Positions 5,439 to 37,387 of a stretch of 37,387 nt of DNA are shown one piece after another (position 1 is the first letter of the stretch; every line of letters begins with the position of its first letter). This DNA is from Oscillospiraceae bacterium (GTDB taxonomy: Bacteria; Bacillota; Clostridia; Oscillospirales; Ruminococcaceae). A model generated the notes under the pieces. That model searched no databases. It was given only the letters and a program-made list of their open reading frames with translations, and was not told where the DNA came from. The position numbers were made by a program, and so were the translations under genes. Where the stretch lies: NCBI GenBank assembly GCA_016281125.1, contig JAEEIA010000012.1:1-37387 (forward strand), read 5' to 3'.

Positions 5439-5439
5439 A

Positions 5440-5640: not shown

Positions 5641-5645
5641 TACAA

Positions 5646-18800: not shown

Positions 18801-20033
18801 GCTCATCACATAAGCGGAGTAGCTGATCTTCTGCTCACCCAGCAGCATTGCATGCTGGTCGAATTCCGAGGGATTGTCCGCCGATGCAACCGCCAGCGCA
18901 CGGGTACCTTCCTGCACCAGAACGTTCATCGTGGAAACATCCGGATTATCCGTTGTCTGCCGCGGGCTGACGAGCGTACCGTCCGCACTGTTGCCCGCAC
19001 TGATGCATACCGTAACGCCTGCCGCCTCCGCCGTATTGACCGCATCGCGGAACGGATCCTCCTTGCCGGGCGTTTCCCCGCAGTAGCCCATGCTGAGGTT
19101 GACGGCATCCGCCCGGAGCTTGACCGCATCCTCCAGCGCACCGATGAATTCCGTCACGTCGGAAACATACTGCATCGCCATAAAGACGATCTGTGCATTC
19201 GGCGCGATGCCGGAGAGCGTTCTGCCCTCCGCGTCCTCATAGACATTGCCTGCCGCGATGCCCGCAACATGCGTGCCGTGATACGCGGATTCGCTGGCAT
19301 CACGGACATCCATGGGAATCTGATCTTCATAATCCGCCGCAAACGGGATCTTGTTGCTGCGCCAGACATACTCCGTTCCGATCTGGACATTGAAGCCGAT
19401 ATTGTCTGAGATCGCTTCGACCTGTTCCTGTGTCAGCTTGGTCTGAACATCGTCCGCGAGCGGCGCGAACATCGGATGCTCCAGATCCAGCTCCGAGTCT
19501 ATGATTGCAATGACCTGTCCGTCGCCGCGGCATCCGGTCTGGCTCTGGAACTGCATTGCATTGCTGATGTCCTCCTCAGAAACGGCCTCCGGCACCGCAT
19601 GAACCTTATAGCTCCGCACAACGCTGCGCACCGCCGGGAGCGCCTCTGCATCATCCAGCAGATTTTCCGGCAGCTCGCAGGAAAATGCGTTTGTCAGCAC
19701 GTTGTAGCGATAGCCGACCTCCAGTTCAGGATACCATTCCGTCAGCTGCGCAATGACCGCATCCTGTTCCGCCGCGATTGCAGCGCTTTCTGCGGCAGCC
19801 TCCGGCGTCACAAGCTGCTCCGCTGTCAGCCCGGGCAGAAGCGCATCCGCATCCAGCGTGACAATGACATTGACCGGAGCGCAGCTCTCTGCGGCCGCTG
19901 TGACAATCTCCGCCGCAGGCGATGCGTCCTGTAAGGCGGCAGCAGCTGGGATTCCGTTTGCTGCAAGACTGCTGCAAGCGAGCAGGAGCGCAGTCTGTAC
20001 ACTGATGATTCGTTTGCATAATTGTTTATTCAT
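15807..20033 (-). CDS. Secreted subtilisin-like serine protease with C-terminal dockerin
   Basis: A 1408-residue S8 peptidase of the cell-envelope (lactocepin/C5a peptidase) type. Numbered from the ATG at 20033: signal peptide 1-about 35; an inhibitor-like prodomain to about 165; catalytic Asp179 (IAIIDSELDLEHP), His252 (YHGTHVAG) and Ser573 (SGTSMASPY); a protease-associated insert around 380-500; Ig/fibronectin-like domains after 600; and a type I dockerin in the last about 65 residues (GDTDLSGQLDVADAVLLARY, then DCNHNGTPDNGD). A GTG six codons upstream is also open, but it overlaps the AAAGGG ribosome binding site of the ATG, so the ATG is preferred. The dockerin should attach the enzyme to a cohesin scaffold on the cell surface. 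The catalytic triad is complete. No clear promoter was found. Confidence 0.93.
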   Translation of the reverse strand: MNKQLCKRIISVQTALLLACSSLAANGIPAAAALQDASPAAEIVTAAAESCAPVNVIVTLDADALLPGLTAEQLVTPEAAAESAAIAAEQDAVIAQLTEWYPELEVGYRYNVLTNAFSCELPENLLDDAEALPAVRSVVRSYKVHAVPEAVSEEDISNAMQFQSQTGCRGDGQVIAIIDSELDLEHPMFAPLADDVQTKLTQEQVEAISDNIGFNVQIGTEYVWRSNKIPFAADYEDQIPMDVRDASESAYHGTHVAGIAAGNVYEDAEGRTLSGIAPNAQIVFMAMQYVSDVTEFIGALEDAVKLRADAVNLSMGYCGETPGKEDPFRDAVNTAEAAGVTVCISAGNSADGTLVSPRQTTDNPDVSTMNVLVQEGTRALAVASADNPSEFDQHAMLLGEQKISYSAYVMSISTADTQKLLSDTLKEASYEYEYCGIGDTSDFEGKDLTGKLALVDRGVLSFTEKAVHAQKVGAVGVIVIQNRPDEYFTPVSNADIPIGIVSVENGALLKNAEDKKISFTDELVTVSLPADVSFYTSYGVHNSLELRPDIMGVGGYVESAAYHNSTSVQSGTSMASPYIAGCAMLLNEYLQKHGCTLTGSEKEQYIRNLLMTGAYPYSEAGLYVSPRRQGAGMVSMDRTLGTKVLLTGTEGESKLSLRDKLGDKFTFPVTLRNISDEDVAFKNARLVLTTDDTFYNRETGKYEIDHQQALKCTADLSGLTAIAAGEARTENVTVQLDASQTAALRKIFTNGFFVEGYLLLEGAENNSDISIPLLGFSDDFEAIPIFGEHSGAFVTLTSSNAVTATTSFSDLLFSDAGFLYEIKNARSTIESLQESGDVDLWSDNPDPAVQNYIRLLDEYENKAMNTWGFPERVYISPNHDFLADKPGIRINAQRDCIIQAGALYDAKGNLLTEPYIYNECSERTLQAEWESEYIKQYQNVYVPLEDLSDLPEGDYTYRISAAISKEALENNPQVLDIPVTIDKTAPKLESSVTEQNGRKILKLTATDPMLDSISFFCIGDGKLVSPSGADAPKKIDAKFMPIAGGLYSDCAWYNLHFEDVGAEMKENDKYRNKLLPAAGFLNEESWDPQNWFDQFDYSEFMQTKPDADGKYTLEYDITDLKGYHIAVMDRAYNMSYIDVAPADARPMSVAPGLYQGAYGLYEFGEGTVRYIPFVYLDKTLNCHYEIESDWVTSYLHADADTSKPGKYEGIGGPLTGNPETGYVIDNSNVVGHVGFYQGQGIPVLDKDVLKPTGLKTADGYLAINSYEAENSCVKPLMTELTGCYRIINMTYDVQPDAVVTFTGECCSKDLKQRETVSITLDYKTGIATLPDGSKRDFSDTEKLVHGDTDLSGQLDVADAVLLARYLVEDREAAVQSKGLNAADCNHNGTPDNGDLSLILMAIAKKVEL

Positions 20034-20210
20034 GATTCTCAACCCTTTCACTTTGTATTCGGGAGAGTTGCCTCTCTGTATGGTAAACGGATGGGTGCGC
20101 GATTTGTTGCGTCATATTTGATGATTTGTATGATGTGACAAAAAAGACGACTCTGTTTTGTGCAGCCTGCCGATAGGCGGATCCCGGCGCTGCACCGTGC
20201 CGGTTTTTCA

Positions 20211-20299: not shown

Positions 20300-23200
20300 A
20301 TGAAGCACAGACACAAAAAAACGATGATCATTCTTGCCGCCGCAGCAGCAGCGGCATGCGCCGTTCCGCAGCTTCCGGCGATGCCGGCGCTGTTCCGTCC
20401 GGCGCTCACAGCATCAGCTGCCGAAACCGTCACGGAGGGCGGCATCACATATGCGCTGTATGAGGATCATGCGGTCGTTTACAAGCGGGAACGGGATTCC
20501 GGCCTGACTGCGGTGGAAATCCCCGCGGAGATCAGCGGCCTGCCGGTCACCGAGATCGGCAAAAGTGCATTTGCCGCAGCAGAAGACCTGATTTCCGTCA
20601 GCCTGCCGGACAGCATCACCGTCATCCGGGAATCCGCATTCAGCGGCTGTACCAATATGACGCAATGCAATATTCCTGCCGGTCTGACCGAAATCGAGGC
20701 AGCCGCGTTCAATTACTGCCTGCTGCTTACCGAAGCACAGCTGCCGGAAACGCTGACGGTAATCGGTGACCGCGCTTTTTATCACTGCACCTCGCTGACC
20801 GGCATTCAGCTCCCGGCATCCCTGACCTATCTCGGCGACAGCGCTATGTTCGCCTGTGACGGGCTCACGGAGATCACGATTCCGGTCACACTCACTGAGC
20901 TCGGCCCGAGGGCATTCGCGGAATGCTCCAACATCAAAACCGCTGTCTTTGAGGACGGCATCAAGGTGATCCCGGAATACATTTTCTACTGCTGCTCCTC
21001 CCTGGAAAGCATCAGCATTCCGGAGAGCGTCAGATCCATCGGCAATTATGCCTTCGACGGCTGCAAGAAGCTCACAAGCATCACCTTCCCGGAGGAACTG
21101 GCTGAGCTCGGCGAAAGCGTCGTCCGCGACTGTGCGTCGCTGACCTCGGTGAAGGTGCCGGACAAGATCAGGATCATCCGTCACAGTGCTTTTGAGGGCT
21201 GCACCGGCCTGACGGAGATTCAGCTCCCGCCCGACCTGAAAATGATCGAGAAGGCGGTGTTCCGGAGCTGTGCCTCTCTGACAAGCCTGGAGCTTCCTGC
21301 CGGCGTCACATGGATCGGCGACGGCTGCTTTGAAGCCTGTGTGAATCTCAGAACTGTCAAGCTGCCGGAAAAGATCCGGCGCATCGAGTCCTCGACATTC
21401 CGGCGCTGCACCGTGCTCGAAAAAGTCGAACTGCCGGAAAGCGTCACGGAAATTTCCGCCTATGCGTTCAACGGCTGCAAGGGTCTGACGGAATTCACGC
21501 TGCCGGACAGCATCACCAGCATTGACGACGAAGCATTCTGCTGCTGCTTCAAGCTGGAGAGCATCGTGATCCCGGAGAGCGTCACGGAAATCCGCGCGGC
21601 CGCATTTGCAGGCTGCAAGGCGCTGAAATCCGTCACGCTGCCGGACAGCCTGACGGAAATCCAGATGAACGCGTTCTCCGACTGCGTTGCGCTGGAAAGC
21701 ATTACCCTGCCGAAGAATCTGCCCGTGATCCGGAACAGCTCGTTCTCCGGCTGCACAGGGCTGAAGGAGCTTGTGATTCCTGAGAGCGTCCGGACAATCG
21801 AGGGCGCGGCGTTCAGCGGCTGTTCCGGTCTGGAGAAGATCACGCTGCCCTCCGGTCTGACCGCGATCCCGAAGGAAATGCTCAGCGGATGCACCGCTCT
21901 GAAATCCATCGACCTGCCGGACGGCATTACCCAGATCGGGCCGCGCGCGTTCCTTGACTGCGCTTCCCTGAACGGTATCAAGCTCCCCGCCGGGATTCGC
22001 ATTATTGATAATGCGACTTTTTCCGGCTGCACTGCACTGGAGCGCATTGTGATTCCGGACGGCACAAAAGAGCTCTGCGAAAATGCGTTTTACTGCTGCA
22101 CCGCACTGAAATCGGTTTCTCTGCCGGACACGCTCACCGACATCGACGGCTCCGCATTTCTGTCCTGCACCGTCCTTTCGGATATACAGATTCCCGCTTC
22201 TGTCCGCTTTATCGGCAAGTCCGCATTCCGCGGCTGTGCAATGAAAACAGCTGTCATTCCGGAGAATGTCCGGTTTATCTCCGCAGAAGCATTCATGGAA
22301 TGCACGGCGCTGAACAGCGTCACGATTCCGGACGGCGTTGAATCCATCATGCGGGATGCATTTTACGGCTGCACTTCGCTGAAAGAAGTTAAGATTCCTG
22401 ACAGCGTCACGGTGATAAACGGCGGTGCATTTGCAGGCTGCACATCTCTTGCGAAGATCCGTCTTTCCAACGGGCTCACTGCGCTCGGCAACTCGGTGTT
22501 TTACGGGTGTACCGCGCTGGAAAGCGTTACGCTCCCGGACAGCATCACGCAGCTTGATTCCGGCGCATTTGCAAAATGCAGCGGCCTGAAAACCGTGGCT
22601 TTTCCGGAGCATCTGACCGCAATCGGAAACCACGCGTTTGTGGACTGCACCGGTCTGGAGCATCTTGTGATTCCGAACAGTGTCACTGCCGTTGAGGAAT
22701 CTGCTTTCTCCGGCTGTAAGGGACTGAAAGACATCGTGTTCCCCGGCAGCCTCAGCACGCTGGGAAAATCGGCATTTGAGGGGTGTACTTCCCTGAAAGC
22801 AGTCACGCTGCCCGTCTGCCTGAAGGAACTCGGCGTGACGGTATTCGGCGGATGCAGCAGCCTGGAGCAGGTGACGATTCAGTCGGGCACCGTGTCTGTT
22901 GACGGGGATGCCTTTGACGGATGCGCGGCATTGAAGCGCATCACAATTCCGTCCACCGTGCAGGAGATTGCGGAGGAGGCATTTGCGGACTGCGCTGCCG
23001 GTCTGGTCATCCGCGGATGGGGTGGCTCCTATGCGGAACGCTATGCCGCTGCGCATAATTACCTGTTTGAAGCAATCGGCACGGCGGAGGAGGAACAGGC
23101 ACGCGGCTCCGGCGATACGAACTGTGACGGCGTGATTGACATTTCTGATGCCGTTCTGATCTGCCGGTATGCGGTCGCGGACAGCGAGGTGCAGATGACC

Positions 23201-23311
23201 GACGCAGGCAGACTGAATGCGGACGTCACGCGGGACGGCGTCATTGACTTGTACGATTCCGAAAAGCTGCTGCTGTTTATCGCAAAGAAAATCATGCAGA
23301 TGCACAACTGA
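20300..23311 (+). CDS. BspA-type leucine-rich repeat surface protein with dockerin
   Basis: A 1003-residue secreted protein. After a signal peptide (residues 1-about 43), residues about 50-900 are roughly 35 LRR_5/BspA repeats of about 23 residues, with the pattern xSVTLPDSLTEIxxxAFxGCTxL. Such repeats form an elongated solenoid used for binding proteins or surfaces. The last about 65 residues are a type I dockerin (GDTNCDGVIDISDAVLICRY, then DVTRDGVIDLYDSEKLL), which should tie the protein to a cohesin scaffold. The repeats differ in DNA sequence, so there has been no recent array expansion. A good CGGGAGGT ribosome binding site precedes the ATG. The partner of the solenoid is unknown. Confidence 0.95.
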   Translation: MKHRHKKTMIILAAAAAAACAVPQLPAMPALFRPALTASAAETVTEGGITYALYEDHAVVYKRERDSGLTAVEIPAEISGLPVTEIGKSAFAAAEDLISVSLPDSITVIRESAFSGCTNMTQCNIPAGLTEIEAAAFNYCLLLTEAQLPETLTVIGDRAFYHCTSLTGIQLPASLTYLGDSAMFACDGLTEITIPVTLTELGPRAFAECSNIKTAVFEDGIKVIPEYIFYCCSSLESISIPESVRSIGNYAFDGCKKLTSITFPEELAELGESVVRDCASLTSVKVPDKIRIIRHSAFEGCTGLTEIQLPPDLKMIEKAVFRSCASLTSLELPAGVTWIGDGCFEACVNLRTVKLPEKIRRIESSTFRRCTVLEKVELPESVTEISAYAFNGCKGLTEFTLPDSITSIDDEAFCCCFKLESIVIPESVTEIRAAAFAGCKALKSVTLPDSLTEIQMNAFSDCVALESITLPKNLPVIRNSSFSGCTGLKELVIPESVRTIEGAAFSGCSGLEKITLPSGLTAIPKEMLSGCTALKSIDLPDGITQIGPRAFLDCASLNGIKLPAGIRIIDNATFSGCTALERIVIPDGTKELCENAFYCCTALKSVSLPDTLTDIDGSAFLSCTVLSDIQIPASVRFIGKSAFRGCAMKTAVIPENVRFISAEAFMECTALNSVTIPDGVESIMRDAFYGCTSLKEVKIPDSVTVINGGAFAGCTSLAKIRLSNGLTALGNSVFYGCTALESVTLPDSITQLDSGAFAKCSGLKTVAFPEHLTAIGNHAFVDCTGLEHLVIPNSVTAVEESAFSGCKGLKDIVFPGSLSTLGKSAFEGCTSLKAVTLPVCLKELGVTVFGGCSSLEQVTIQSGTVSVDGDAFDGCAALKRITIPSTVQEIAEEAFADCAAGLVIRGWGGSYAERYAAAHNYLFEAIGTAEEEQARGSGDTNCDGVIDISDAVLICRYAVADSEVQMTDAGRLNADVTRDGVIDLYDSEKLLLFIAKKIMQMHN

Positions 23312-24154: not shown

Positions 24155-27100
24155 ATGAAACAGCGTTTGAAACGGAATCTCTCATTGATCACGTCGCTTC
24201 TGACGGCGATGAGCTCTGTGACGGCATTGCAGGGTGCGCTTCCTGCGAATGCGGACAGCAGCAAAACCTATGTCTGTGACGGCTTTGACATTGACTACAA
24301 TGTCACCGGCCACTGGACAGGCGGCTATCAGGTTATGCTCACAGTTACGAATACCGGTACGGAAACGATGGAAAACTGGTCGCTTCTGTTTGACTGCGAA
24401 TCACCGATCTTCTATGCATGGAATGCAGAGCTCGGTGACCGCAAAGGGGATTATGTGGTCGCATCTTCGATGCGCTACAATCATGACATTGCGCCGGGCG
24501 AAAGCACTGTATTCGGTTTTTCGGCCGTGGGTGAGCCGTGTTATCCGGAGGGCTTTGTTTATGTATCCGGCCCGGAAACGGTCAGAGCGGAAGACTACAC
24601 TGTGTCCTATGAGGTCATGCAGACTGTCGGCACGGTGCAGTATCTCAACGTGACCGTTGCCAATGAATCGAATACTGCCATCGAAAACTGGAAGCTGGAC
24701 TTTGAATATCCCTGCACCGTCACGAATGCCTGGAATGCCAGAGTGCTCTCGGAGGAGGGCAATCTGCACCGGATCGGCTATGCGGAAAACGCGTACATTG
24801 ATCCTGCATCCTCTGTGACCTTCGGCATGACCGTGGACACGGAAAATCCGGACGGTCTGTTTGATAACTGCACCCTGACACAGGTGCGCAAATATAATAC
24901 CGCACAGCTCGGCCTGCCGATGCGCAAAACCGTCGAGGATGAGCTAGGCGACAAATACCGCATCACATGGCAGTCGGATTCCGACGAGCTGCCGGTCGTT
25001 TCTGCTTATCCGGAATCGCTGGAGGAGCTGATCCATCCGGAGATCCGGTATTCGGTTTCGCAGCTCGGCGTCATTCAGTTCACGATGCCGCCGCTCAAGG
25101 GCAGCGCAATCGTGGAAACAACCTTTGCGGAAAAGCCGGATATGCTCATGCAGCTGGACGAAAGACGCCATATGCTCAAGATGCTGCCGTTCCAGGCAAC
25201 AGAGGACGGCTGCACGTTCCGTCTGACCGGCAGTGCGGTGGTCGTTCCGCTGAAAATGGTTCCGAGGACAACCGCTGCGCCCGTCGAAACAACCGTTCCG
25301 GCTGCTGAAACGACGGCTGCCCCGGCGATTGAAACGACAGCTGCTCCGGCTGCTGAAACGACCGCAGAGGTCGTGACGGAAACGGCAGCAGCAACGGAAC
25401 TGACCTCCGCGGCACCGGCGGAAACCACGGTTCTGACGACAGAAACAACAGCTGCCGTCACCGCTGACGAAGCGGATTCCGACACAGATGCTGCTGGACA
25501 TCCGCAGTATCTGACCGCAGACCGCAGCTACCATTCCGGCAATGACCGGGATGCAAGCTCGACCGTGACAAAGTGGTTCAAGATTCTCTCGAACAGCGGC
25601 GGCTCTTTCACAGTAGACGTTTCCGAAATGAAAAGGGATATCGAAGATCTTTGGGCCGGCTGTCCGCTTTCTCTGACTGCGCATATCTCCCAGGGCGGCA
25701 CCAGCCGGTCGGTTGATGTGCAGCCAGACGGTACATTCTCGTACAGCGGCGCCAATCCCGGCCTTGTGAAGGTCGAAATACAGACCAACTGGGAGCTGGA
25801 AGGTGAGGTTTATCCCGGTGATTATTGCTGGGAACAGAATATTTATGTTCACCAGTCTTCCTCGCTCTCGGCCACGGATCAGAATGCGCTGCTGAGAAAA
25901 TATGCGCCGATCGTCATGTATGCAGATGAAGAAGAGTATGCACCGATGAGCCTGGACGGCATTTTTAACGCAATCCAGAATCAGACCTCGATTGATGAGC
26001 TGTTCTTCAGCACGACATTCGGCATGGAGGAAGTGCCGGTTGCGGATCTGCCGGAGTTTATGGCATACAACGGCAACTCAGATTATTTGCTGGACTGGAA
26101 TGACGATCTGTTCAACAGCGGCAGTCATTCTTTCAGGGAGATTAAGGGCAGCTTCTCGAATGCGTATGTCTATCAGTATTATCAGGAGGACAGCAGCTAT
26201 ATCTATCTGAACTACTATTTCCTCTACGGCTTTGACAACAAGAACGGCCCGTTCGGCGATCATAACCTTGACCGCGAAAGCATGTTTGTTGTGCTGAACA
26301 AGAGTACGAAAGACCCGCTTTACGTGGTAACAGGCGGTCATCTTCCGTCCTCCGATATTCAATATGACAACGGATTCAGCTGGTCAAATGAACTGGTCAA
26401 GGTTGATTATGAAAAGGCAGTTTCACCGTATTCCGAAGGACATCCGATTATCAGTGTTGAGAAGTGCCAGCACTGCACGGTGCCGGTGCCGGGCAAATAC
26501 ACGGTGACAACCGGCAACCTTCCGCCACAGTCGAATCCCGCCGGTATGCGGAGTGACATTGAAAGCAGCGGCACGCTGAACCTGAGCGGGAAAAAGGTCA
26601 TCTTCCCGTCGAATTTCCGTTCCGCTGAGAGCGCACTGAATCATTATACCTCTCTGGAACTGAAAGTCGATAAAATGTACGGAAACAATATCCTGAATTT
26701 CAGCGGCGACTGGGTGGATATGCTGGGAACCGACAATGAAAACTTCCCGCCGTTTCTTGACCGCGATTATGACAAAACAGCAAAATACAGCGGACTTTCG
26801 GAACTGGATCCTGATGCATACACAAAGCAGATGGAAACCAGACGCACTGAGGAACAGTTCTGCAAGGGATATCTGTTCACACTGACCTCTGTTCAGGATT
26901 TCACATATGCTTCCACAGGCAGCGGCGGTTACGATCTGACGTGGGAGCCGATCGAGGGTGCGGCCGGGTATGAGCTCAAGCACACCATCTCCGGCGGCAA
27001 TACGGAAACCATTACCCTTACCGGCGGTTCCCGGAGCTCGTATCAGGACAATTCGGCCATCAACACCACGTTCCGCATCAGAGCTTTCTATGACGTGGAC

Positions 27101-28081
27101 AGAACGAAGTACGATGGTACCGGCAGCTTCCGCGTTTACAACCAGTATGCAACTGCGAGCGTATCGGATGACATCGGCACCGTGCTCGTGACCGTGCGTG
27201 ATGCGGATACCAATGCGGTGCTGTCCGGCGTCCGCGTGTATCTGGACAACACCTATGTCGGTACGACAAGCGGCGGCAGCTATGCAGTCAGCGTTTCCGC
27301 CGATACCACCCACACAATCCGCACCGAAAAGACCGGCTATCTGTCGGTTGAGTACCGCGAGATCACCGTGGAGGGCGGCGAAACCGTTTCGCTGGATACG
27401 CTGATGCAGGTTCCGTACAATGCCGATGCCCCGACGGGCAATGCCTCCCTGACCATCAAGGACGCGCAGACCGGCAATGTCATGCCGGGTGTGGCGTTCG
27501 TCATCCGCAAGGGCATGAACACGACGACCGGCACCGCACTGACCACCGCAACCTCCAACGCAAGCGGCGTGGTATCCCTGACCGGTCTGGATGCAGGCAA
27601 CTATACCGGTGTGATTGAGGAAACCGGCTATATCAAGACCGTATTCAACTTCACGGTTATCGGCGGCAGGAGCAAGAGCTATGAGGTGCATGTCAGCCCG
27701 ATCCTCAGCGGCCAGCAGATCCGCTTTGTTCTGAGCTGGGGCGCAAATCCGAGAGATCTGGATTCCCACATCACCGGCAACAACATCCATGTGTATTACC
27801 GGACACCGGTCGCACAGGGCATCAACCTTGACGTGGACGATGTGGACGGCTACGGACCGGAAACCGTCACGGTCAATCTGGGCGTGGCGCCGGAGGGCAC
27901 TTACAGCTACTATGTCCACCGTTACGCAGGCAGCGGAACAATCCGGAATTCCGGCGCAACGGTCAAGGTCTACCGCGGCAGCACGCTGATTAAGCGGTAT
28001 TCCGCAGAGCAGGCGGAGTCCGGCGATATCTGGCGCGTCTGCACCGTCAACACCAGAACCGGCGTCGTGGCCGACTGGTAA
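24155..28081 (+). CDS. Large secreted multidomain protein with CBM-like, Vps62-like and YfaP-like domains
   Basis: A 1308-residue exported protein. Signal peptide 1-about 33. Residues about 36-140 and 147-245 are two related beta-sandwich modules resembling family 2-type cellulose-binding domains (VMLTVTNTGTETMENWSLLF; LNVTVANESNTAIENWKLDF). A Thr/Ala linker follows at about 371-440. Residues about 575-900 resemble the Vps62 fold (KYAPIVMYADEEEYAPMSLD, then YYFLYGFDNKNGPFGDHN). Next come a fibronectin-like domain (about 910-1000), two PEGA/carboxypeptidase-regulatory-like domains (about 1005-1090 and 1095-1180) and a C-terminal YfaP/DUF2135-like domain (LSWGANPRDLDSHI, VDGYGPETVTV). There is no dockerin. 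First gene of a probable operon; the next gene starts 45 bases later. Role inferred: binding and perhaps processing of polysaccharide or surface ligands. Confidence 0.8.
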   Translation: MKQRLKRNLSLITSLLTAMSSVTALQGALPANADSSKTYVCDGFDIDYNVTGHWTGGYQVMLTVTNTGTETMENWSLLFDCESPIFYAWNAELGDRKGDYVVASSMRYNHDIAPGESTVFGFSAVGEPCYPEGFVYVSGPETVRAEDYTVSYEVMQTVGTVQYLNVTVANESNTAIENWKLDFEYPCTVTNAWNARVLSEEGNLHRIGYAENAYIDPASSVTFGMTVDTENPDGLFDNCTLTQVRKYNTAQLGLPMRKTVEDELGDKYRITWQSDSDELPVVSAYPESLEELIHPEIRYSVSQLGVIQFTMPPLKGSAIVETTFAEKPDMLMQLDERRHMLKMLPFQATEDGCTFRLTGSAVVVPLKMVPRTTAAPVETTVPAAETTAAPAIETTAAPAAETTAEVVTETAAATELTSAAPAETTVLTTETTAAVTADEADSDTDAAGHPQYLTADRSYHSGNDRDASSTVTKWFKILSNSGGSFTVDVSEMKRDIEDLWAGCPLSLTAHISQGGTSRSVDVQPDGTFSYSGANPGLVKVEIQTNWELEGEVYPGDYCWEQNIYVHQSSSLSATDQNALLRKYAPIVMYADEEEYAPMSLDGIFNAIQNQTSIDELFFSTTFGMEEVPVADLPEFMAYNGNSDYLLDWNDDLFNSGSHSFREIKGSFSNAYVYQYYQEDSSYIYLNYYFLYGFDNKNGPFGDHNLDRESMFVVLNKSTKDPLYVVTGGHLPSSDIQYDNGFSWSNELVKVDYEKAVSPYSEGHPIISVEKCQHCTVPVPGKYTVTTGNLPPQSNPAGMRSDIESSGTLNLSGKKVIFPSNFRSAESALNHYTSLELKVDKMYGNNILNFSGDWVDMLGTDNENFPPFLDRDYDKTAKYSGLSELDPDAYTKQMETRRTEEQFCKGYLFTLTSVQDFTYASTGSGGYDLTWEPIEGAAGYELKHTISGGNTETITLTGGSRSSYQDNSAINTTFRIRAFYDVDRTKYDGTGSFRVYNQYATASVSDDIGTVLVTVRDADTNAVLSGVRVYLDNTYVGTTSGGSYAVSVSADTTHTIRTEKTGYLSVEYREITVEGGETVSLDTLMQVPYNADAPTGNASLTIKDAQTGNVMPGVAFVIRKGMNTTTGTALTTATSNASGVVSLTGLDAGNYTGVIEETGYIKTVFNFTVIGGRSKSYEVHVSPILSGQQIRFVLSWGANPRDLDSHITGNNIHVYYRTPVAQGINLDVDDVDGYGPETVTVNLGVAPEGTYSYYVHRYAGSGTIRNSGATVKVYRGSTLIKRYSAEQAESGDIWRVCTVNTRTGVVADW

Positions 28082-28126: not shown

Positions 28127-31100
28127 ATGAAACACAACGACATGATCAAACGCATCCTTTCGGGTGCGATGGGCGCGGTGACAGCCGCAAGCTCTGTGCC
28201 GTTCCTCTCCGCATTTGCCGCAGAGAATCCGGCACCCTTCCCGTATGTTATCTTTGCAGCCTCCGGTGAGGAGGGCGCAATCACCGTTCACGCAGACCAG
28301 ATCTGCGTGAACGGCAATCTGGCCGCGAACGGCACGGTTGTCACCGACGGCACCGTGTACCTGAACGGAACCCTGACCGAGCACGCTGAGGCCGAAATGC
28401 TGAACGTCATGCGAAAGCTCAGCTATCTGTATTTCAGCGGCGACGACGTTACCGTTTACGACGGCGATTTCAGCGACGAGCGGGTCAATCTCCGCGTGAT
28501 GCATCCGGTCAGCTGCGCAGGCAGTTATTCGCTGAAAGGCAACCTCAATCTCCGCGCGGATATCAAGGCGGCGGAGGACATTGTGTTCAGCGGCAGCTCG
28601 CTCAACACGGCGCAGATTGCAGTCTGCTCCGAAAACGGCGATATCCGTCTGGATACGGACAATGTCAATTTCAGCGGTCTGCTCTATGCGCCGAACGGCA
28701 GTGTCGTGATCGACACGGGCAGCCTGAATCTGAACAATGCCGTGATTATTGCGCAGACTGTTACGATTGACTGCGCCAACGCGAATATCAACTACGGCAG
28801 CAATCTGGCAGCTGTCCTCGGCAATACGTCCGACATCATCCCGGAGCTGTACGCACTGGGCTTCTATATGCCGGAGGTCAACGCCATCAGCCTGAAATGG
28901 CTCTCCAATTACAAAGACGCCGAATTTGAGGTGCTGTGCTCGGATGACAACGAAACCTATCAGACCGTTGCGTCTGTGACAGGGCAGGAATACGAGTATC
29001 TGATTCAGTCGGATTTTGAGGAGCGGTATTTCAAAATCCGCTTCACTGCCGATTACGGCGAGATTGTGGAATCCGTTCCGCTGGTTGCCAGAAAAACCGC
29101 CGAAGGCTATACCGTGACGTTCATCGACACGGATGATGACGGCCTTGCAGATGTGTTTGAATATCTCGGCGGCACCGATCCGACGCTGCCGGACACCGAT
29201 GCGGACGGCCTCAGCGATTACGAGGAAATCTATCAGGTCGGCACGGATCCGCTCGTTTACGATTCGGTGGAAGCAGGCATTGCCGATGCCGATGCGGACA
29301 GCGACGGCGACGGCCTGACCAATGCGCAGGAGCTTGCACTCGGAACGAATCCGAAGGAAGCGGATACAGACAGCGACGGTCTGAGCGACGGCGCAGAGCT
29401 GCATGATTATCAGACGAATCCGCTGAATCCCGATACGGACGGTGACACGCTGCCCGACGGCGACGAGCCGCATATCGGGCTGGATCCGACAAACCCGGAA
29501 ACCTTCGGCGTGCCGGATGCGGAGTATACTGTGTCCCAGACCATCGCTGCATCCAGCGCGGTGTTCAGCGAAATCAATGTCAGTGACGCACCGTATGCCG
29601 TATCGCTTCAGACAGAGGCGTCCGGCTATGCGGAGGGCAATCTGACCGTCCGCGAAACAAGCTATGCGGCTGCAATCGAAAACGATGCGATCCTCGGCAC
29701 GGCGCCGGAGATCATCTGCACCGGGAACTGCACGGTTCACAGCGCGGAAATCCGCTTTGCAATCAAGGACGAATATGTCAATAACCCGCAGAGCGCCTTC
29801 CCCGATGAGCCGGAATTGCAGGGGCTGAAACGGCTCGTGATCTTCCGCTACATTGACGAGCTGCACATGATGCTGCCGATGGAAACGCAGTACGATCTGG
29901 AGAACAATGAGATCTATGCCGCAGCAGACGGCCTCGGCACCTACTGCGTCATGGATATGGAAGCATGGCTGCTCAATCTCGGCGTCGTACCGGGCGAATA
30001 CGAGGAGGACGAAGATGCGGAGCCGCTCCGTGACCGCAGCATTCCGGTTCGTTCTGCTGATACGGCTGCTCCCGAAGATACCCGCATTGCACAGAGCGCG
30101 GATGCCGCTGCTGCTACTGCTCCCGTCAGAAAGCAGAAGAGCGCGCTGCCTGTCACCGCAGACACCGCTGACCGCGGCGATTCCGTCACGGACGGCGCAT
30201 CCACGCCGCTGGATCTGGTGATTCTGTTCCAGACGAACGGCCTGCTGCCGGACACCTTTGTATCCCAGAGAAATATGCTCATCAGCCTCTGCACGCGTCT
30301 GTTCACTAGATTCTCCGATGCGAGAATCTATCTGATCGGCTATCGGCAGAACGGCGCACAGTTCCTGAAATCAGGTGCGTTCGGCTACTGCACCGATGCG
30401 GGCGAGGTCCGCACGGCGCTGAATGCGGTCACGTATGTACAGACCAGTGAATACTGCAACCGCGGCGCCGCCTTCACGAAGATGATGAATGAAGTGACCT
30501 TCCGTGAAACTGCCGGAAAGTTTGTGTTCCAGATCATGAACGGAAACACGAATGTCGGCGACAATTATTTCAGTGAGCTGGATGCCTGCGCAAGAGGCAA
30601 TATCAATTATTCCGAGGTAATCCCGGAGGGCTTTGCCTACGTCGATCCCGCCTACGGCCAGAAGGTCGCAAATGCCATTGCCAGAACCGGCGGTCTGAAT
30701 CTGGTCTACGGCAACGATACGCAGCAGACGCTTTACGATCATATCGCGAACAAGATCGCACCGCCGCAGGTGCAGTTTACTGCGGTTGTGCCGACCGGCT
30801 GGAAGACCGTCACGCTTGACGATGTGCTTTCCCCGACAAACGGCGCAAACTCCGACACCGACGATCTGACCGACTGGCAGGAGGTTGATACCGAAAGCGG
30901 GCTGATTACCTGGGACAACACCGGTGCGGTGAACCTCCCGACCTTCCGGGAGTGCCTGAATGTGGCCAGAAGCAGGGGATACAACGTGATTTCCGCGCTG
31001 GCCGGCACACTGAGCACCAGTATTCCGCCCTATCTGATTGATTATTACTATAACCGGAAGATTCTGCCGATCAAATCGGATCCCTGCAATCCGGATACGG

Positions 31101-32002
31101 ATGACGACGGCCTGCTTGACGGCACGCCGGTCTACACGACCATCAGCGGCGGGAAAAAGCAGATTGCACCGACCGACCCGGATCCGATGGCTTATACCGG
31201 CCTGAAAAACCTGTGGAAAACGCAGATCGAACAGATGCAGAATCCCCGCAATGTCAGAACAGAATATGCGCCCAGCCTCGGCCTGGATGTGGAATTTGAC
31301 CAGCTCATCGCGGATACGCTGATTGCAACGCTGCTGTCATTCCGCGGAACGGCGCAAGCGCATTTTGATGAGCTCAGAGCAGCTGCGCTCTGGCTCAAGG
31401 AACGGCTGCCGCTGTCCGCTGCGGTCGGCGCTTATGTCCTGAACTTTGTCCATGACGAAGGCGGAGAGGTCTATCATTCCAAGCCGGATACCTGGCAGCG
31501 TGAATTCGGCTATAATGAAATGTACGACCTGATTTTCCGCATCGGTTCGAATATGAACTACGGCAGAGTCGATTTCACGGTCGGTTCTGTTACATATTCC
31601 CTGTGGGCATGGAAGGGCGATTACTGGAACCTGCACAGCGGCGCAGAGGTCGGCCTGTATGTCTATGACGGATGGGTTTCGGGCATGCGGCATTACGACG
31701 TCGTGACCTTTGAGGTGCCGATGACGCTGAGCCTGTATAACCGTGTGGGCGGCAGTGGCTATCATAATATTTACAACTGGGCACCGCGTCAGAATCAGTG
31801 GTGGGTCACCGGCTTTGCACCGCATTATCCCGATCCGCATCCGGAGATTATGGTATCTGTTTGCAGCGTGGATCTGCATGACCGTCCTTCGATGTTCAAT
31901 GCCATTTCCAACAGAGGCAATGCCAGATACTATGATCAGCTGACTGCCGAGAATCTCATTTTCGATTACAATACGCAGACAGTCTGGCTCCAGTGGAACT
32001 AA
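28127..32002 (+). CDS. Secreted thrombospondin type 3-repeat protein with VWA-like domain
   Basis: A 1291-residue exported protein. Signal peptide 1-about 31. Residues about 40-240 look like a repetitive beta-helix (GEEGAITVHADQICVNGN and similar rungs). Residues about 335-465 hold five or so calcium-binding thrombospondin type 3 repeats (DTDDDGLADVFEY, DTDADGLSDYEE, DSDGDGLTNAQE, DTDSDGLSDG). Residues about 690-890 resemble a von Willebrand A domain, but the metal site is degenerate (DLVILFQTNG where DxSxS is expected). A further DTDDDGLLDG lies near 990, and the last 200 residues are unassigned. No dockerin or sortase signal is seen. Ribosome binding site ACGGAGA. It is followed after 12 bases by a lipoprotein gene, so these are co-transcribed. 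Confidence 0.8.
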   Translation: MKHNDMIKRILSGAMGAVTAASSVPFLSAFAAENPAPFPYVIFAASGEEGAITVHADQICVNGNLAANGTVVTDGTVYLNGTLTEHAEAEMLNVMRKLSYLYFSGDDVTVYDGDFSDERVNLRVMHPVSCAGSYSLKGNLNLRADIKAAEDIVFSGSSLNTAQIAVCSENGDIRLDTDNVNFSGLLYAPNGSVVIDTGSLNLNNAVIIAQTVTIDCANANINYGSNLAAVLGNTSDIIPELYALGFYMPEVNAISLKWLSNYKDAEFEVLCSDDNETYQTVASVTGQEYEYLIQSDFEERYFKIRFTADYGEIVESVPLVARKTAEGYTVTFIDTDDDGLADVFEYLGGTDPTLPDTDADGLSDYEEIYQVGTDPLVYDSVEAGIADADADSDGDGLTNAQELALGTNPKEADTDSDGLSDGAELHDYQTNPLNPDTDGDTLPDGDEPHIGLDPTNPETFGVPDAEYTVSQTIAASSAVFSEINVSDAPYAVSLQTEASGYAEGNLTVRETSYAAAIENDAILGTAPEIICTGNCTVHSAEIRFAIKDEYVNNPQSAFPDEPELQGLKRLVIFRYIDELHMMLPMETQYDLENNEIYAAADGLGTYCVMDMEAWLLNLGVVPGEYEEDEDAEPLRDRSIPVRSADTAAPEDTRIAQSADAAAATAPVRKQKSALPVTADTADRGDSVTDGASTPLDLVILFQTNGLLPDTFVSQRNMLISLCTRLFTRFSDARIYLIGYRQNGAQFLKSGAFGYCTDAGEVRTALNAVTYVQTSEYCNRGAAFTKMMNEVTFRETAGKFVFQIMNGNTNVGDNYFSELDACARGNINYSEVIPEGFAYVDPAYGQKVANAIARTGGLNLVYGNDTQQTLYDHIANKIAPPQVQFTAVVPTGWKTVTLDDVLSPTNGANSDTDDLTDWQEVDTESGLITWDNTGAVNLPTFRECLNVARSRGYNVISALAGTLSTSIPPYLIDYYYNRKILPIKSDPCNPDTDDDGLLDGTPVYTTISGGKKQIAPTDPDPMAYTGLKNLWKTQIEQMQNPRNVRTEYAPSLGLDVEFDQLIADTLIATLLSFRGTAQAHFDELRAAALWLKERLPLSAAVGAYVLNFVHDEGGEVYHSKPDTWQREFGYNEMYDLIFRIGSNMNYGRVDFTVGSVTYSLWAWKGDYWNLHSGAEVGLYVYDGWVSGMRHYDVVTFEVPMTLSLYNRVGGSGYHNIYNWAPRQNQWWVTGFAPHYPDPHPEIMVSVCSVDLHDRPSMFNAISNRGNARYYDQLTAENLIFDYNTQTVWLQWN

Positions 32003-32588: not shown

Positions 32589-34622
32589 TCAGTTCACGAC
32601 AGTGAAGTCGATTCTGGTGCGGACGCCGCCGCCTTTCAGAATGATATAACAACTGCTGCCGATTCTGGTTTTGCCGCCGATCTGCCATGTCCACGATACA
32701 AATCCGCTGCTGTCCGTGACACGGTTTTCGAGTCCTTTTGCCCTTGAGGCGCCGGAGGAATAGTACACGTCAATATCATATTCGGTATTTGGCAGTCCGA
32801 TGACCCTGAGCGTGATATCCTCGTTCCGCCGCACAATGAGCGGATACGGCGAGATTTGCAGGCTGCCGACCTGCGCATAGACCGGAGCAGGCTCCGCGGT
32901 GGCCGCCGGTTCCGTATGCATCACCGGTGCGTTTGTGACCGGCACTGTTGTGTGTACGGCTGTTGTCGTGACCGGAGCAGCCGTTGTTGTGTGTACGGTC
33001 GTTGTTGTGCGTGCAGCCGTTACGGCGGCTGTTGTTGTAACAGCGGACGTTGTTGTAACGGCGGCGGCAGGCGTTTTGAGCAGCATATCCCATGTGACAT
33101 CCATCCCTGCAACGACCTTTTCGGTGTAATATCTGAGGATCAGCTGGGCATCGTCCACACTGACGCTGCCGTCCCCGTTGATGTCAGCGGCCAGAATCTG
33201 CTCGCTGCTCAGCCCGGTGGGGTTGCCCGCAATCCGGTTGGTATAGGATCGCAGCGTCAGCTGGGCGTCGTCCACGCTGACGGCATTGTCCAGATTCGTA
33301 TCCCCGCGCAGAACGGGCTTCGGGGGCTGCGTTGTGGTCGTCGTGGTCGTCGTTGTTGTGGCAGTGGTGGTCGTTGTCGTTGTCGTTGTCGTGGTTGTTG
33401 TGGTGGTGGTGGTTGTGGTCGTAGTTGTGGTGGTAATGGTTGTGGTCGTAGTTGTGGTGGTAGTGGTGGTGGTAGTTGTTGCGGTCGTCGTTGTTGTGGT
33501 AGTGGTCGTTGTTGTTGTGGTTGTAGTTGTGGTCGTTGTTGTTGTGGTCGTTGTTGTCGTGGTCGTCGTTGTGGTAGCTGCTGTTGTGGTAGCTGCCGTT
33601 GTAGTCGCTGCTGAGGCCGCAGTGGTTGCCGGAACCTGCGGTACTGCGGTCGTGACGGCGGGCGGCGCTTCTGCACAGGCCTGCATCGCCGCAAGATCAT
33701 CTGCCGGAATCTGTGATGCCAGCTCCAGAGTGAGTCCGCTGAGCGTCTGCTGCATCAGCGGCGACCGCCTGGACGGAAGCTCCAGCTGACTGAGCACCGC
33801 CGCGGCAATCAGCATATGACCGAGCGGTGTCGGAATCGCATCCTTTTCATAGAGCCAGCCCGAGCCCGCAAAAGCAGCGCACACATCCGCGACCTTCACC
33901 CCGGATGCCTTTTTCATCGCGTTGTTCAGCTGCTTTTCCGTGCTGTTGACATAAGTCATCAGCAGCTCGTACTGATTCAGCGCGCTGTCGGAATAGCCGC
34001 CTGCCTTCAGCTGCTCCGGCGACTTTTCAAACGAATTGTATACGGTCTGGAACACAATCTGTGCATCCGGATTCAGCGCGCGCAGCTTTTCCGCAATGAC
34101 CGGATAATTTGCGGCCGCGGTCGTCCGCGGTGTGCGGAGCGCAGAGGTCAGTCCGAGAATGGTCGTGAGCGCATCGCCCTCACCGGCAGCGCGCCTGACC
34201 GTATCCGTCAGGCTTTCGCCCTCTTTGGCCATGGCGGACAGATATGCCTTTGCGGGCTGGAGCAGATCGTTTCCGCCCGCGCTGATGCAGATGATGTCCG
34301 CATCAGCAATGGTATCTGTATTTGCGGGATCGCAGATCACGTCGATCACATCACCGGTTTTCATACCGGATGCTGCAAGATTGATGACGGTGCCGCCGGT
34401 GCAGTCGGCGATATAATCATAGTAAGCATGTTCGTGTTCGCTAAGGCCTCCGCCGGCGGAGATCCCGTCCCCGAGAATCAGAACGGTTCCTGTTCCCGGC
34501 TGATGATCCTGAACGGCCGCATCGGCACATGCAGCGGGAGCAGCTGCATGCATCCCGGCGGAAAGTCCGGTCAGCGCAGTGCATACGGCACAGGCAAGCG
34601 CCTGCATTCGCAGAGCTTTCAT
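32589..34622 (-). CDS. SGNH-hydrolase-fold secreted protein with poly-Thr stalk and internal dockerin
   Basis: A 677-residue exported protein. Signal peptide 1-about 33. Residues about 45-285 have the SGNH/GDSL fold: block I LILGDGISAGGG, block III ISAGGNDLL (Asn118), and block V DAIPTPLGH. Two catalytic residues appear changed: the block I nucleophile position is Gly53 (GDG, not GDS) and the His before the conserved Pro264 is Ile263. A run of about 80 almost pure Thr (about residues 350-430) forms a stalk, followed by a type I dockerin (GDTNLDNAVSVDDAQLTLRS, DINGDGSVSVDDAQLILRY), a second Thr-rich linker, and a C-terminal beta domain of about 85 residues. The dockerin is internal, not terminal as usual. 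GAAAGGA precedes the ATG. Probably a binding protein rather than an active esterase. Confidence 0.85.
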   Translation of the reverse strand: MKALRMQALACAVCTALTGLSAGMHAAAPAACADAAVQDHQPGTGTVLILGDGISAGGGLSEHEHAYYDYIADCTGGTVINLAASGMKTGDVIDVICDPANTDTIADADIICISAGGNDLLQPAKAYLSAMAKEGESLTDTVRRAAGEGDALTTILGLTSALRTPRTTAAANYPVIAEKLRALNPDAQIVFQTVYNSFEKSPEQLKAGGYSDSALNQYELLMTYVNSTEKQLNNAMKKASGVKVADVCAAFAGSGWLYEKDAIPTPLGHMLIAAAVLSQLELPSRRSPLMQQTLSGLTLELASQIPADDLAAMQACAEAPPAVTTAVPQVPATTAASAATTTAATTTAATTTTTTTTTTTTTTTTTTTTTTTTTTTTTTTATTTTTTTTTTTTTTITTTTTTTTTTTTTTTTTTTTTTTTATTTTTTTTTTQPPKPVLRGDTNLDNAVSVDDAQLTLRSYTNRIAGNPTGLSSEQILAADINGDGSVSVDDAQLILRYYTEKVVAGMDVTWDMLLKTPAAAVTTTSAVTTTAAVTAARTTTTVHTTTAAPVTTTAVHTTVPVTNAPVMHTEPAATAEPAPVYAQVGSLQISPYPLIVRRNEDITLRVIGLPNTEYDIDVYYSSGASRAKGLENRVTDSSGFVSWTWQIGGKTRIGSSCYIILKGGGVRTRIDFTVVN
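33330..33620 (-). repeat. Low-complexity poly-threonine codon tract
   Basis: About 80 consecutive ACN codons on the - strand, broken by a few Ala and one Ile codon. All four ACN codons occur (GTN on the + strand), so selection appears to act on protein, not on a pure DNA repeat. The poly-valine frame on the + strand is its shadow. Confidence 0.85.
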
Positions 34623-34759: not shown

Positions 34760-37387
34760 TTATGAAAACAGCTTGCGGAAGAACCGCTTCAGGAACGGGA
34801 ATGTCTGTACTCTCTTTTCGAGCAGATCCTCCCATGTAATATTCAGTCCTGCAACAACCTTCTGCGTGTAGTATTTCAGAATCCACTGTGCGTCATCGAC
34901 ACTGACGATGCCGTCACCGTTGATATCCGCAGCCTTGATCTGTCTGTCGGTCAGGCCCATGTCGTTGCCTGCGATGCGCTGTGTGTACGCTCTGAGCGTG
35001 AGCTGTGCGTCATCGACGCTGACCTCATTGTCCAGGTTGGTATCGCCGCGCAGCGGTTCAGGATCGGACGGTGTTGTGACGGTCGGATCCGTTGTGGTAA
35101 TCGGATTGGTCGTTGTAGTCGGATCGGTTGTCGTGGTCGGATCGGTTGTCGTGGTCGGATCGGTCGTCGTGGTCGGATCGGTCGTGACGGTCGGATCGGT
35201 TGTGACGGTCGGATCGGTCGTCGTGGTCGGATCGGTTGTGACGGTCGGATCGGTCGTGACAGTCGGATCGGTTGTGACGGTCGGATCGGTCGTGACAGTC
35301 GGATCGGTTGTCGTGGTCGGATCGGTCGTGACGGTCGGATCGGTCGTGACGGTCGGATCGGTCGTGACGGTCGGATCGGTCGTGACGGTCGGATCGGTCG
35401 TGACAGTCGGATCGGTTGTGACAGTCGGATCGGTTGTGACGGTCGGATCGGTTGTAACGGTCGGATTGGTCGTGACAGTCGGATCGGTCGTAGTAGTCGG
35501 ATCGAAGAATTCATCCGTCGTTGTTGTTTCGGTGGTCGGATCGGTCGTTTCGGGTACCGTCGTGGTAACGGCCGGTTTGATGCTTTCGCCGAGGACATCG
35601 ACACTCAGGCGGGTGACATTGTGCTGCGCATCAATGATCAGGACGGTTGCATGGCCGCCGCCAACCGCAGTGATGACGCCGTTTTCGGAAACCACAACAA
35701 CGTCCCAGTCGCTGGAACGGAAGATGACGTTTTCCTGATCGGTGAAGAGTGTGAACTGCTCGCCCTTGTTCAGCGTGATGCTTTCCGGAATTGTGTGCGG
35801 AAGCTCCGGCTCTGTTTCTGATGTCGTGACCGAAGTCGTGATATCCGTGGTTGCGCCGGACTCAGTGGTTGCGCCGGACTCGGTGGTTACACCGGACTCA
35901 GTGGTTGCGCCGGGCTCAGTGGTTGCGCCAGGCTCAGTCGTTCCGGTGACCTTTTCAGTCGTGCCGGTGATGTTTGCGGTTGTGCCAGTGACCTTATCGG
36001 TTGTGCCAGTGATATTTGCAGTGGTACCGGTGACCTTAGAGGTCGTGCCGGTGATATTTGCGGTTGTACCGGTGACCTTAGAGGTTGTGCCGGTGATGTT
36101 TGCGGTTGTGCCAGTGACCTTATCGGTTGTGCCAGTGATATTTGCAGTGGTACCGGTGACCTTAGCGGTCGTGCCAGTGATATTTGCGGTTGTACCGGTG
36201 ATATTTGCGGTTGTACCGGTGATGTTTGCGGTTGTGCCGGTTACCTTAGAGGTCGTGCCAGTGATATTTGTGGTCGTGCCGGTTACCTTAGAGGTCGTGC
36301 CAGTGATGTTTGCGGTTGTGACAGTGACCTTAGAGGTCGTGCCAGTGATATTTGCGGTTGTGCCGGTGACCTTAGAGGTCGTGCCAGTGATATTTGCGGT
36401 TGTGCCGGTGACCTTTGCGGTTGTGCCGGTGACTTTCGCGGTTGTGCCGGTGACCTTCGCGGTTGTGCCGGTGACCTTAGAGGTCGTGCCAGTGATATTT
36501 GCGGTTGTTCCGGTAACCTTTGCGGTGGTACCGGTGATCTTTGCGGTGGTACCGGTGATCTTTGCGGTGGTACCGGTGATCTTCGCAGTGGTATCGGTGA
36601 TGTTTGCGGTCGTGCCGGTGATCTTTGCAGTTGTGCCGGTGACCTTAGAGGTCGTGCCAGTGATATTTGCGGTTGTACCGGTGATCTTTGCGGTCGTGCC
36701 GGTAATCTTCGCAGTGGTGCCGGTAACCTTTGCAGTGGTGCCGGTAACCTTCGCGGTTGTGCCGGTGATCTTCGCAGTGGTGCCGGTGACCTTCGCAGTG
36801 GTGCCGGTGACCTTCGCAGTGGTGCCGGTAACCTTTGCAGTCGTGCCGGTGACCTTCGCAGTCGTGCCGGTAACCTTCGCGGTTGTGCCGGTAATCTTTG
36901 CAGTGGTGCCGGTGATCTTTGCGGTCGTGCCGGTAACCTTAGAGGTTGTACCGGTGACCTTAGAGGTTGTGCCGGTGACCTTTGCAGTGGTGCCGGTGAC
37001 CTTTGCGGTCGTTCCGGTGACCTTTGCAGTGGTGCCGGTGACCTTTGCGGTCGTTCCGGTGACCTTTGCGGTTGTGCCAGTAACCTTTGCTGTGGTGCCG
37101 GTGATCTTTGCGGTCGTGCCGGTAACCTTCGCAGTCGTGCCGGTGACCTTTGCAGTCGTGCCGGTGACCTTTGCGGTTGTGCCGGTGACCTTTGCGGTGG
37201 TACCGGTGACCTTTGCAGTGGTGCCTGTTACTTTAGAGGTAGTGCCGGTAACCTTTGCAGTCGTGCCGGTAACCTTCGCAGTCGTGCCGGTGACCTTTGC
37301 AGTGGTGCCTGTTACTTTAGAGGTAGTGCCGGTAACCTTTGCAGTCGTGCCGGTAACCTTCGCAGTCGTGCCGGTGACCTTTGCAGT
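34760..37387 (-). CDS. Giant repeat stalk protein with Big_2-like domain and dockerin (5' end outside window)
   Basis: The - strand frame is open from the window edge to the stop at 34760-34762, giving 875 residues, and starts beyond the window. In order from the N-terminal side: about 69 heptapeptides of consensus TTAKVTG (37387-35940); five hexapeptides E[SP]GATT (35936-35847); a Thr-rich bridge; an Ig-like Big_2 domain (from IPESITLNKGEQFTLF to VTRLSVDV, about 35800-35595); exactly 24 hexapeptides DPTVTT (35503-35072); a type I dockerin (GDTNLDNEVSVDDAQLTLRA, DINGDGIVSVDDAQWILKY); and a basic aromatic tail (FPFLKRFFRKLFS). A GTG at 35695 begins the longest start-to-stop frame, but this is inside the Big_2 domain and is not the start. 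The dockerin should attach the protein to a scaffold, with the repeats as a long extended spacer. The N-terminal function is out of view. Confidence 0.88.
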   Translation of the reverse strand, partial: TAKVTGTTAKVTGTTAKVTGTTSKVTGTTAKVTGTTAKVTGTTAKVTGTTSKVTGTTAKVTGTTAKVTGTTAKVTGTTAKVTGTTAKVTGTTAKITGTTAKVTGTTAKVTGTTAKVTGTTAKVTGTTAKVTGTTAKVTGTTSKVTGTTSKVTGTTAKITGTTAKITGTTAKVTGTTAKVTGTTAKVTGTTAKVTGTTAKVTGTTAKITGTTAKVTGTTAKVTGTTAKITGTTAKITGTTANITGTTSKVTGTTAKITGTTANITDTTAKITGTTAKITGTTAKITGTTAKVTGTTANITGTTSKVTGTTAKVTGTTAKVTGTTAKVTGTTANITGTTSKVTGTTANITGTTSKVTVTTANITGTTSKVTGTTTNITGTTSKVTGTTANITGTTANITGTTANITGTTAKVTGTTANITGTTDKVTGTTANITGTTSKVTGTTANITGTTSKVTGTTANITGTTDKVTGTTANITGTTEKVTGTTEPGATTEPGATTESGVTTESGATTESGATTDITTSVTTSETEPELPHTIPESITLNKGEQFTLFTDQENVIFRSSDWDVVVVSENGVITAVGGGHATVLIIDAQHNVTRLSVDVLGESIKPAVTTTVPETTDPTTETTTTDEFFDPTTTTDPTVTTNPTVTTDPTVTTDPTVTTDPTVTTDPTVTTDPTVTTDPTVTTDPTVTTDPTTTTDPTVTTDPTVTTDPTVTTDPTVTTDPTTTTDPTVTTDPTVTTDPTTTTDPTTTTDPTTTTDPTTTTNPITTTDPTVTTPSDPEPLRGDTNLDNEVSVDDAQLTLRAYTQRIAGNDMGLTDRQIKAADINGDGIVSVDDAQWILKYYTQKVVAGLNITWEDLLEKRVQTFPFLKRFFRKLFS
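35072..35503 (-). repeat. 24 tandem 18-bp units encoding DPTVTT
   Basis: Exactly 144 codons, 24 units of six residues, with no phase break. Variants are DPTTTT, NPTVTT and NPITTT. Many neighbouring units are identical or nearly so in DNA, so the array can expand or contract by recombination. Confidence 0.95.
35847..35936 (-). repeat. Five tandem 18-bp units encoding E[SP]GATT
   Basis: Five contiguous 18-bp units differing at a few bases (two EPGATT, three ESG[AV]TT). They directly join the heptapeptide array. Confidence 0.9.
35940..37387 (-). repeat. 69 tandem 21-bp units encoding TTAKVTG-type heptapeptides
   Basis: Counted by eye: one EKVTG unit at 35940-35960, then 68 units from 35961 to the edge (the last lacks one base). 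Every unit is 21 bp, with no insertion or deletion. Variation is mostly at two places, A/S/D/T-K/N and V/I. An 84-bp block (37221-37304) is repeated without change at 37305-37387 as far as the window goes. The array continues past the window. Confidence 0.95.

Follow-up and report, generated by a model that had tools for sequence, protein, structure and literature searches.

A threonine-rich heptapeptide array runs off the end of the contig

We analysed the whole of contig JAEEIA010000012.1 (37,387 nucleotides, hereafter the window) from the Oscillospiraceae bacterium assembly GCA_016281125.1, at one end of which a dockerin protein carries a long array of threonine (Thr)-rich heptapeptides of TTAKVTG type. 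The genome (G000) has 98 contigs and is rated 95.5% complete; the window is its contig C27. The array lies on the minus strand in a frame that translates to 875 amino acids (aa) and stays open to the contig edge, which is its 5' end (Table 1). We found that it consists of 68 complete 21-bp units and, at the edge, one cut unit of six residues. An earlier note, made from the letters of this DNA alone, had counted at least 69 phase-perfect units that leave the window, and both the count and the open edge are borne out: all 67 gaps between position-4 residues equal seven, Tandem Repeats Finder scores the array at 1456 and reports a 42-bp consensus and no indels (0%), and the frame runs off the contig.

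The 68 units comprise 45 different DNA sequences and 9 different peptides. Every unit has Thr at positions 1, 2 and 6 and valine or isoleucine at position 5, and their make-up drifts along the array. In the last 28 window units, identity is 0.85 between units two apart as compared to 0.755 between neighbours, and ANI units alternate with SKV, DKV or EKV units in a 42-bp (two-heptad) pattern. The final 101 bp of the contig exactly repeat a stretch lying 84 bp inside. This repeat leaves a doubt of about four units in the count next to the edge, and it is probably also why the assembly breaks there.

After the heptads the frame encodes a short hexapeptide array, a Big_2-like domain, a Thr-rich linker with (TTDPTV)n hexapeptides and a dockerin. 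The dockerin matches PF00404 above the cut-off on a fragment and at 20.3 bits, below the cut-off, on the whole 875-aa protein; together with the translation, this match supports the view of the array as a Thr-rich repetitive spacer in a dockerin protein. The Big_2-like domain named in the earlier note is weaker: PF02368 scores 19.6 bits on a fragment (cut-off 22.8) and is not listed for the whole protein, while a homologue in genome G016, 37–39% identical, passes that cut-off with 35.7 bits. As for the expectation that start-based gene finders would miss most of the array, it is right within the window, where the first listed start gives 311 aa, but gene callers that allow incomplete genes at the ends of contigs would find it.

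The 5' half most likely lies on a second contig

A unit search of G000 at E ≤ 1e-6 found, besides C27, only contig C14; weaker matches on further contigs are other T-rich repeats. C14, with a length of 6253 bp, breaks off within the array after 28 heptads. Its ATG-started frame at 4238–6253(+), 672 aa long, encodes LRR_5, a cohesin and these 28 heptads, and its N-terminus looks leader-like by eye. The BspA-type LRR_5 part scores 157.6 bits in the Pfam scan; TIGR02167 reaches its threshold as well (30.4, cut-off 30), though with the LRR part and not with the array. The cohesin matches PF00963 with 31.6 bits on a fragment and 31.4 bits in the genome search (cut-off 24.1), the window frame itself having no cohesin, and with phmmer the cohesin region gives weak matches to a cell-wall anchoring protein and to ScaE chains (E 0.003–0.03).

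A plausible ATG start for the array gene thus lies on C14, in agreement with the earlier view that the gene starts outside the window. Looking beyond the contig for the N-terminus yielded a candidate half with LRR_5 and cohesin, on a contig whose end does not overlap that of the window. Both contigs stop within the array, and what one of them lacks is the half that the other carries; they have five identical 21-bp units in common and similar G+C (0.556 and 0.543). Below 8% mismatch the ends show a single near-overlap, of 39 bp with three mismatches. Because the ends do not overlap, we infer rather than prove the join and the total unit count. C14 and C27 are most likely one gene with the order LRR_5 - cohesin - (TTAKVTG)≥96 - Big_2-like - (TTDPTV)n - dockerin, whose array would hold at least 96 heptads, or at least 672 aa.

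The terminal 101-bp repeat could be taken to mean that the length of the array is an assembly artefact, a false extension through a short repeat. We consider this extremely improbable, because 45 of the 68 window units and 22 of the 28 units on C14 differ at the DNA level, a diversity that the repeated copying of one short stretch would not produce, and the doubt is limited to about four units at the edge.

Relatives cover the combined module order piecewise

In genome G001, of the same genus, one open frame on contig C8, with an N-terminus beyond the stretch examined, encodes LRR_5, a cohesin (33.8 bits, on a fragment only) and 22 Thr heptads of TTTVKPA type (172 aa), and ends in a dockerin-like region whose score over the whole piece, 19.2 bits, falls short of the cut-off of 22.9. 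Its identity to the LRR-cohesin part of C14 is 40.9% (391 columns) and to the window dockerin 58.8% (97 columns), although its cohesin is not uniquely closest to that of C14, as several others score like it at 35–38% identity. In G000 itself, contig C1 encodes in one frame LRR_5, a cohesin-like region that matches the C14 cohesin at 3.8e-10, a Thr linker of 68 aa and a dockerin (26.1 bits). In G016, contig C29 carries a cohesin (41.3 bits), a Thr linker, the Big_2 domain described above and a Thr array that runs off the contig end. Judged by these module matches, the combined order of C14 and C27 is covered piecewise by relatives.

The order LRR_5 - cohesin - Thr linker - dockerin, found in both G001:C8 and G000:C1, is a recurrent architecture in the genus. 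The window dockerin matches 84 stretches in G000 at E ≤ 0.001 (fragments counted), and there are 25 cohesin matches, 16 of which exceed the Pfam cut-off; G000 is rich in cellulosome-type modules.

The unit is under purifying selection, as are other linkers

To describe selection on the unit, we used the proportions of synonymous (pS) and nonsynonymous (pN) differences between units. In the window units, pS/pN are 0.481/0.088 (ratio pN/pS 0.18), in the C14 units 0.445/0.042 (0.10), and in 11 comparison arrays, two of which are the window hexads, pN/pS ranges from 0.02 to 0.30. Purifying selection on the TTAKVTG unit is real, but it is not stronger than on other linkers. Off-register gaps number 0 of 92 in the window and C14 arrays, 21 of 282 in a set of 23 further T-rich arrays (six of them from one array with 13-residue spacing) and 1 of 58 in five sister arrays of G000; three of the 28 loci yielded no countable array. 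These gaps are not independent because units arise by duplication, and expansion by whole 21-bp units preserves phase on its own. That protein length and register are under special selection, as suggested earlier, is therefore not shown: pN/pS falls within the range of the 11 arrays and the sister arrays are nearly as clean.

Threonine heptads occur in the genus in several forms

Arrays of (TTTTAKA)n stand shortly upstream of dockerins at four other G000 loci, on contigs C5, C30, C4 and C66. Contig C5 likewise ends within its array before the dockerin. Of 30 genus genomes, nine match a (TTTTAKA)10 query, a result that is uninformative on a preference for period seven because the query itself has that period. 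These matches are not all TTAK-cored, as G021 has TVRPA-type units. When units are rotated to a common start, TTAK-ATT, TTAK-PAA, TTAK-SAA, TTAK-VTT and TTAK-VTG are among them. On contig C18 of G008, TTAKVTG and TTAKATG units lie within a (TTAKPAA)n array of a very long LRR_5-like protein, and therefore the TTAKVTG unit occurs alongside proline-containing units.

A TTAKVTG query at E ≤ 0.001 has matches in 4 of the 30 genus genomes; the long run is found only in G000 and a short run in G008, and the matches in G002 and G015 are other T-rich heptads. At E ≤ 1e-8 the array has matches in 3 of 396 genomes of the wider family, drawn from a larger group. One of these three, G117 (35% identity), was dropped as spurious and periodic, its DNA reading as a Glu/Pro/Ala-rich heptad. 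In named genomes, none of 288 pattern stretches was confirmed by tblastn, a weak negative given the repetitive sequence and the possible exclusion of near records. Scanning the named genomes with the dockerin alignment gave five loci in metagenome-assembled genomes (45–54% identity; labelled Oscillospiraceae, Clostridia, Clostridiales or Ruminococcus), two with T-rich stretches of other units and three with none. A literature text search for TTAKVTG found no paper, and no such array is named in related titles or abstract openings.

We refer to these repeats, Thr-rich heptad arrays between modules of a secreted protein that most often have a TTAK core, as Thr heptad linkers of the genus, a grouping of our own and not a curated family. 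The window array fits it, and TTAKVTG is one among several such linkers.

The array is probably the spacer of an adaptor scaffoldin

Taken together, these data suggest that the array is, with good probability, the central spacer of a secreted adaptor scaffoldin that bears a cohesin and a dockerin, its gene being split over two contigs. The array is most likely a known kind of part at unusual length and not a new kind of protein. The dockerin is predicted to plug into a scaffoldin or anchoring cohesin, and the LRR_5-cohesin end to capture another dockerin protein or a surface. Between them, the Thr-rich array would form an extended, flexible and possibly O-glycosylated spacer that holds the LRR_5-cohesin end away from the dockerin-anchored end. 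The array may have grown out of Thr heptad linkers of the genus, gaining 21 bp or 42 bp at a time through slippage or unequal exchange, with purifying selection acting presumably on unit composition and not on a specific fold. By our own arithmetic, the contour length would be about 235 nm at 0.35 nm per residue, and the length as a solenoid about 23 nm at 0.48 nm per 14-residue coil.

Several observations weigh against this proposal. With respect to the join, the ends of C14 and C27 share no exact overlap as long as 10 bp; the full module set is absent from every single relative; whole-protein Pfam scans did not list the cohesins of C14, G001:C8 and G000:C1; and a synteny comparison of the G001:C8 flanks (19 kb each side) with C14 and C27 gave only gene-family, LRR and dockerin matches, and additionally one short 45-residue match. 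With respect to flexibility, the units of both contigs, with valine or isoleucine at position 5 in 96 of 96 and Thr at 287 of the 288 places at positions 1, 2 and 6, are stricter than an unstructured linker needs. In the best AlphaFold2 model of the sense protein almost every heptad contains a strand, and the means over ten-residue blocks reach 95. The antisense (plus-strand) reading of the array, which is also open and heptad-periodic, gives no strands and a mean predicted local distance difference test score (pLDDT) of 38.9; this control is less regular at the protein level than the sense array and thus an imperfect match.

The first of these points would also follow if C14 and C27 were two different array genes whose other halves are missing from the assembly. 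The unit make-up differs accordingly, 28 of the 68 complete window units reading TTAKVTG as compared to 21 of the 28 on C14. However, no third contig carries the array in a genome of this completeness, relatives cover the combined order piecewise, and unit make-up drifts within the window array too, which leaves two separate genes decidedly improbable.

A Pfam match and a predicted solenoid

The earlier note knew of no named family with this unit, and this is nearly right. PF21300 (LbR_Ice_bind) does match above its cut-off of 30 bits, with 69.7 bits for the window protein and 39.2 bits for the C14 protein, yet in the light of permutation controls this match does not speak for homology. Random permutations of the unit do not pass (0 of 7 scored; nine were generated), while five of five hand-chosen permutations that keep V-x-G do (36.7, 36.8, 61.8, 68.7 and 72.7 bits), three of them scoring higher than the pure TTAKVTG unit (39.2 bits). 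Alternating SKV and ANI units reach 26.5 bits, below the cut-off, and the sister heptad and the TTDPTV hexad have no match. The match therefore reflects V-x-G every seven residues and is no sign of common descent. What the array shares with the grass antifreeze protein of PF21300, whose structure we take to be a beta roll, is the seven-residue period with V-x-G; the match tracks this spacing, and the Asn-bearing TTANITG unit scores only 19.3 bits, again below the cut-off. PF21300 fires generally on V-x-G heptad repeats, a possible source of false antifreeze annotations. NCBIfam matches of the array to SMC, Rad50-like and TigB models lie below their cut-offs and, like phmmer matches in the PDB to the RNA polymerase II tail, look like periodicity.

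The main rival to a flexible spacer is a two-sheet beta-solenoid with one heptad per strand and about 14 residues per coil, which would make the array a rigid rod of about 23 nm. A/S-3 and V/I-5 would lie inside, T-2, K/N-4 and T-6 outside, and G7-T1 at the turns; a strand register that faces the two sets of side chains opposite ways would be physically reasonable. The AlphaFold2 strands and block means given above favour it, as the hexad array and domains after the heptads are almost wholly below 50 in the same best model (which is expected without an alignment), and so do the strandless antisense heptads of the same DNA, the restriction of valine and isoleucine to position 5, the 42-bp alternation in the last 28 units and the absence of register breaks. 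However, the confident solenoid obtained by structure prediction is also a known repeat artefact: in the part of PMC11795689 that we draw on, AlphaFold2 modelled 32 of 78 random repeats (41%) confidently as beta-solenoids. The five models of the sense protein vary (mean pLDDT 62.6 to 43.4), a Foldseek search with the whole 875-aa model found no solved structure at E ≤ 0.001 (best E 0.96), and the PF21300 match is unspecific. In addition, the heptads of the G001 relative with LRR_5, cohesin and dockerin contain proline, and V, A and P units are intermingled in G008. The AlphaFold2 result gives mild support for a real beta propensity, tempered by repeat bias, and we regard the solenoid as a rather unlikely alternative.

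A more specific version holds that at least 96 proline-free heptads fold by themselves into a two-strand beta-solenoid rod and serve as a ruler of fixed length from cohesin to dockerin. Such a rod would have evolved from a disordered TTAK-type linker via proline loss and V-x-G gain, and the number of units would set the reach of the complex; we think this unlikely. The flexible spacer of an adaptor scaffoldin remains the reading that we prefer.

Other features of the window

The coordinates of the array gene and of its neighbours are collected in Table 1. The dockerin of the GDSL-type protein, the same-direction neighbour of the array gene, is 75% identical to that of the array gene.

Table 1. 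Features of the array gene and neighbouring genes in the window.
Feature	Position	Strand	Basis or remark
C-terminal gene part, 875 aa, 5' open; N-terminal part most likely G000:C14:4238-6253(+)	34760..37387	-	open frame
TTAKVTG-type array: 68 complete 21-bp units and, at the open contig edge, a cut unit	35942..37387	-	translation, unit count
101-bp exact repeat, 84-bp offset, reaches contig end	37203..37387	-	self-comparison of contig end
(TTE[PS]G[AV])5 hexapeptide array, immediately after heptads	35852..35941	-	Tandem Repeats Finder, translation
Big_2-like domain	35567..35818	-	sub-threshold here; G016 homologue passes
Thr-rich linker with (TTDPTV)n hexapeptide array	35072..35566	-	Tandem Repeats Finder, translation
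Dockerin PF00404	34814..35047	-	25.0 bits on fragment, cut-off 22.9
GDSL-type lipase/acylhydrolase with long Thr-rich repeats and dockerin	32589..34622	-
TSP3 repeats, DUF4474; adjoins the gene in the next row	28127..32002
CBM_2, carboxypeptidase-regulatory-like and SpaA domains in a single protein	24155..28081	+
Long LRR_5 protein with C-terminal dockerin	20300..23311	+	dockerin 28.1 bits
Subtilase with PA and Fn3-like domains	15807..20051	-
DEAD/Helicase_C and UvrD helicase regions in one open frame	6..4781	+

Comparison with known systems

If the join holds, the spacer is more than 15 times as long as the 27–41 aa linkers in the parts of the published papers cited below, and about four times as long as that of the closest comparator (172 aa, in G001). 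The protein would then be a natural test of spacer length against cellulosome reach, and of whether small unit changes turn a disordered linker repeat into a folded rod. It also illustrates how plain periodic sequence can trigger a Pfam repeat family and AlphaFold2 alike. Repeat-broken contigs can hide both ends of such proteins from annotation, and may hide further split genes, as at the end of C5.

The linkers of ruminococcal cellulosome proteins, in the parts of the papers drawn on here, are the nearest known parts. T-rich linkers are called predominant in the glycoside hydrolases of R. flavefaciens FD-1 (PMC2721979). The native linkers in a designer-scaffoldin study have 27–35 aa, and longer intermodular linkers raised the activity of designer cellulosomes (PMC3878649). 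The Sas20 linker has 41 aa, and for a Thr-rich R. bromii linker O-glycosylation is raised as a possibility, without data (PMC9112005). The array is also Thr-rich, but it would span at least 672 aa and is made of heptads without proline.

As a whole protein, the predicted single chain across the two contigs resembles the ScaC-type adaptor scaffoldins of R. flavefaciens, of which each strain is reported to have 5–11 with one cohesin and one dockerin (PMC4081043, in the part cited), in that it would likewise have one cohesin and one dockerin. Unlike that type, it would have LRR_5 before the cohesin, a spacer of at least 672 aa of heptads and a Big_2-like domain. The SIGN-LRR-Doc proteins of R. 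flavefaciens FD-1 combine leucine-rich repeats and a dockerin in one protein, as here; unlike the array protein, their entries in the part of PMC2930009 used here have no cohesin and no such array.

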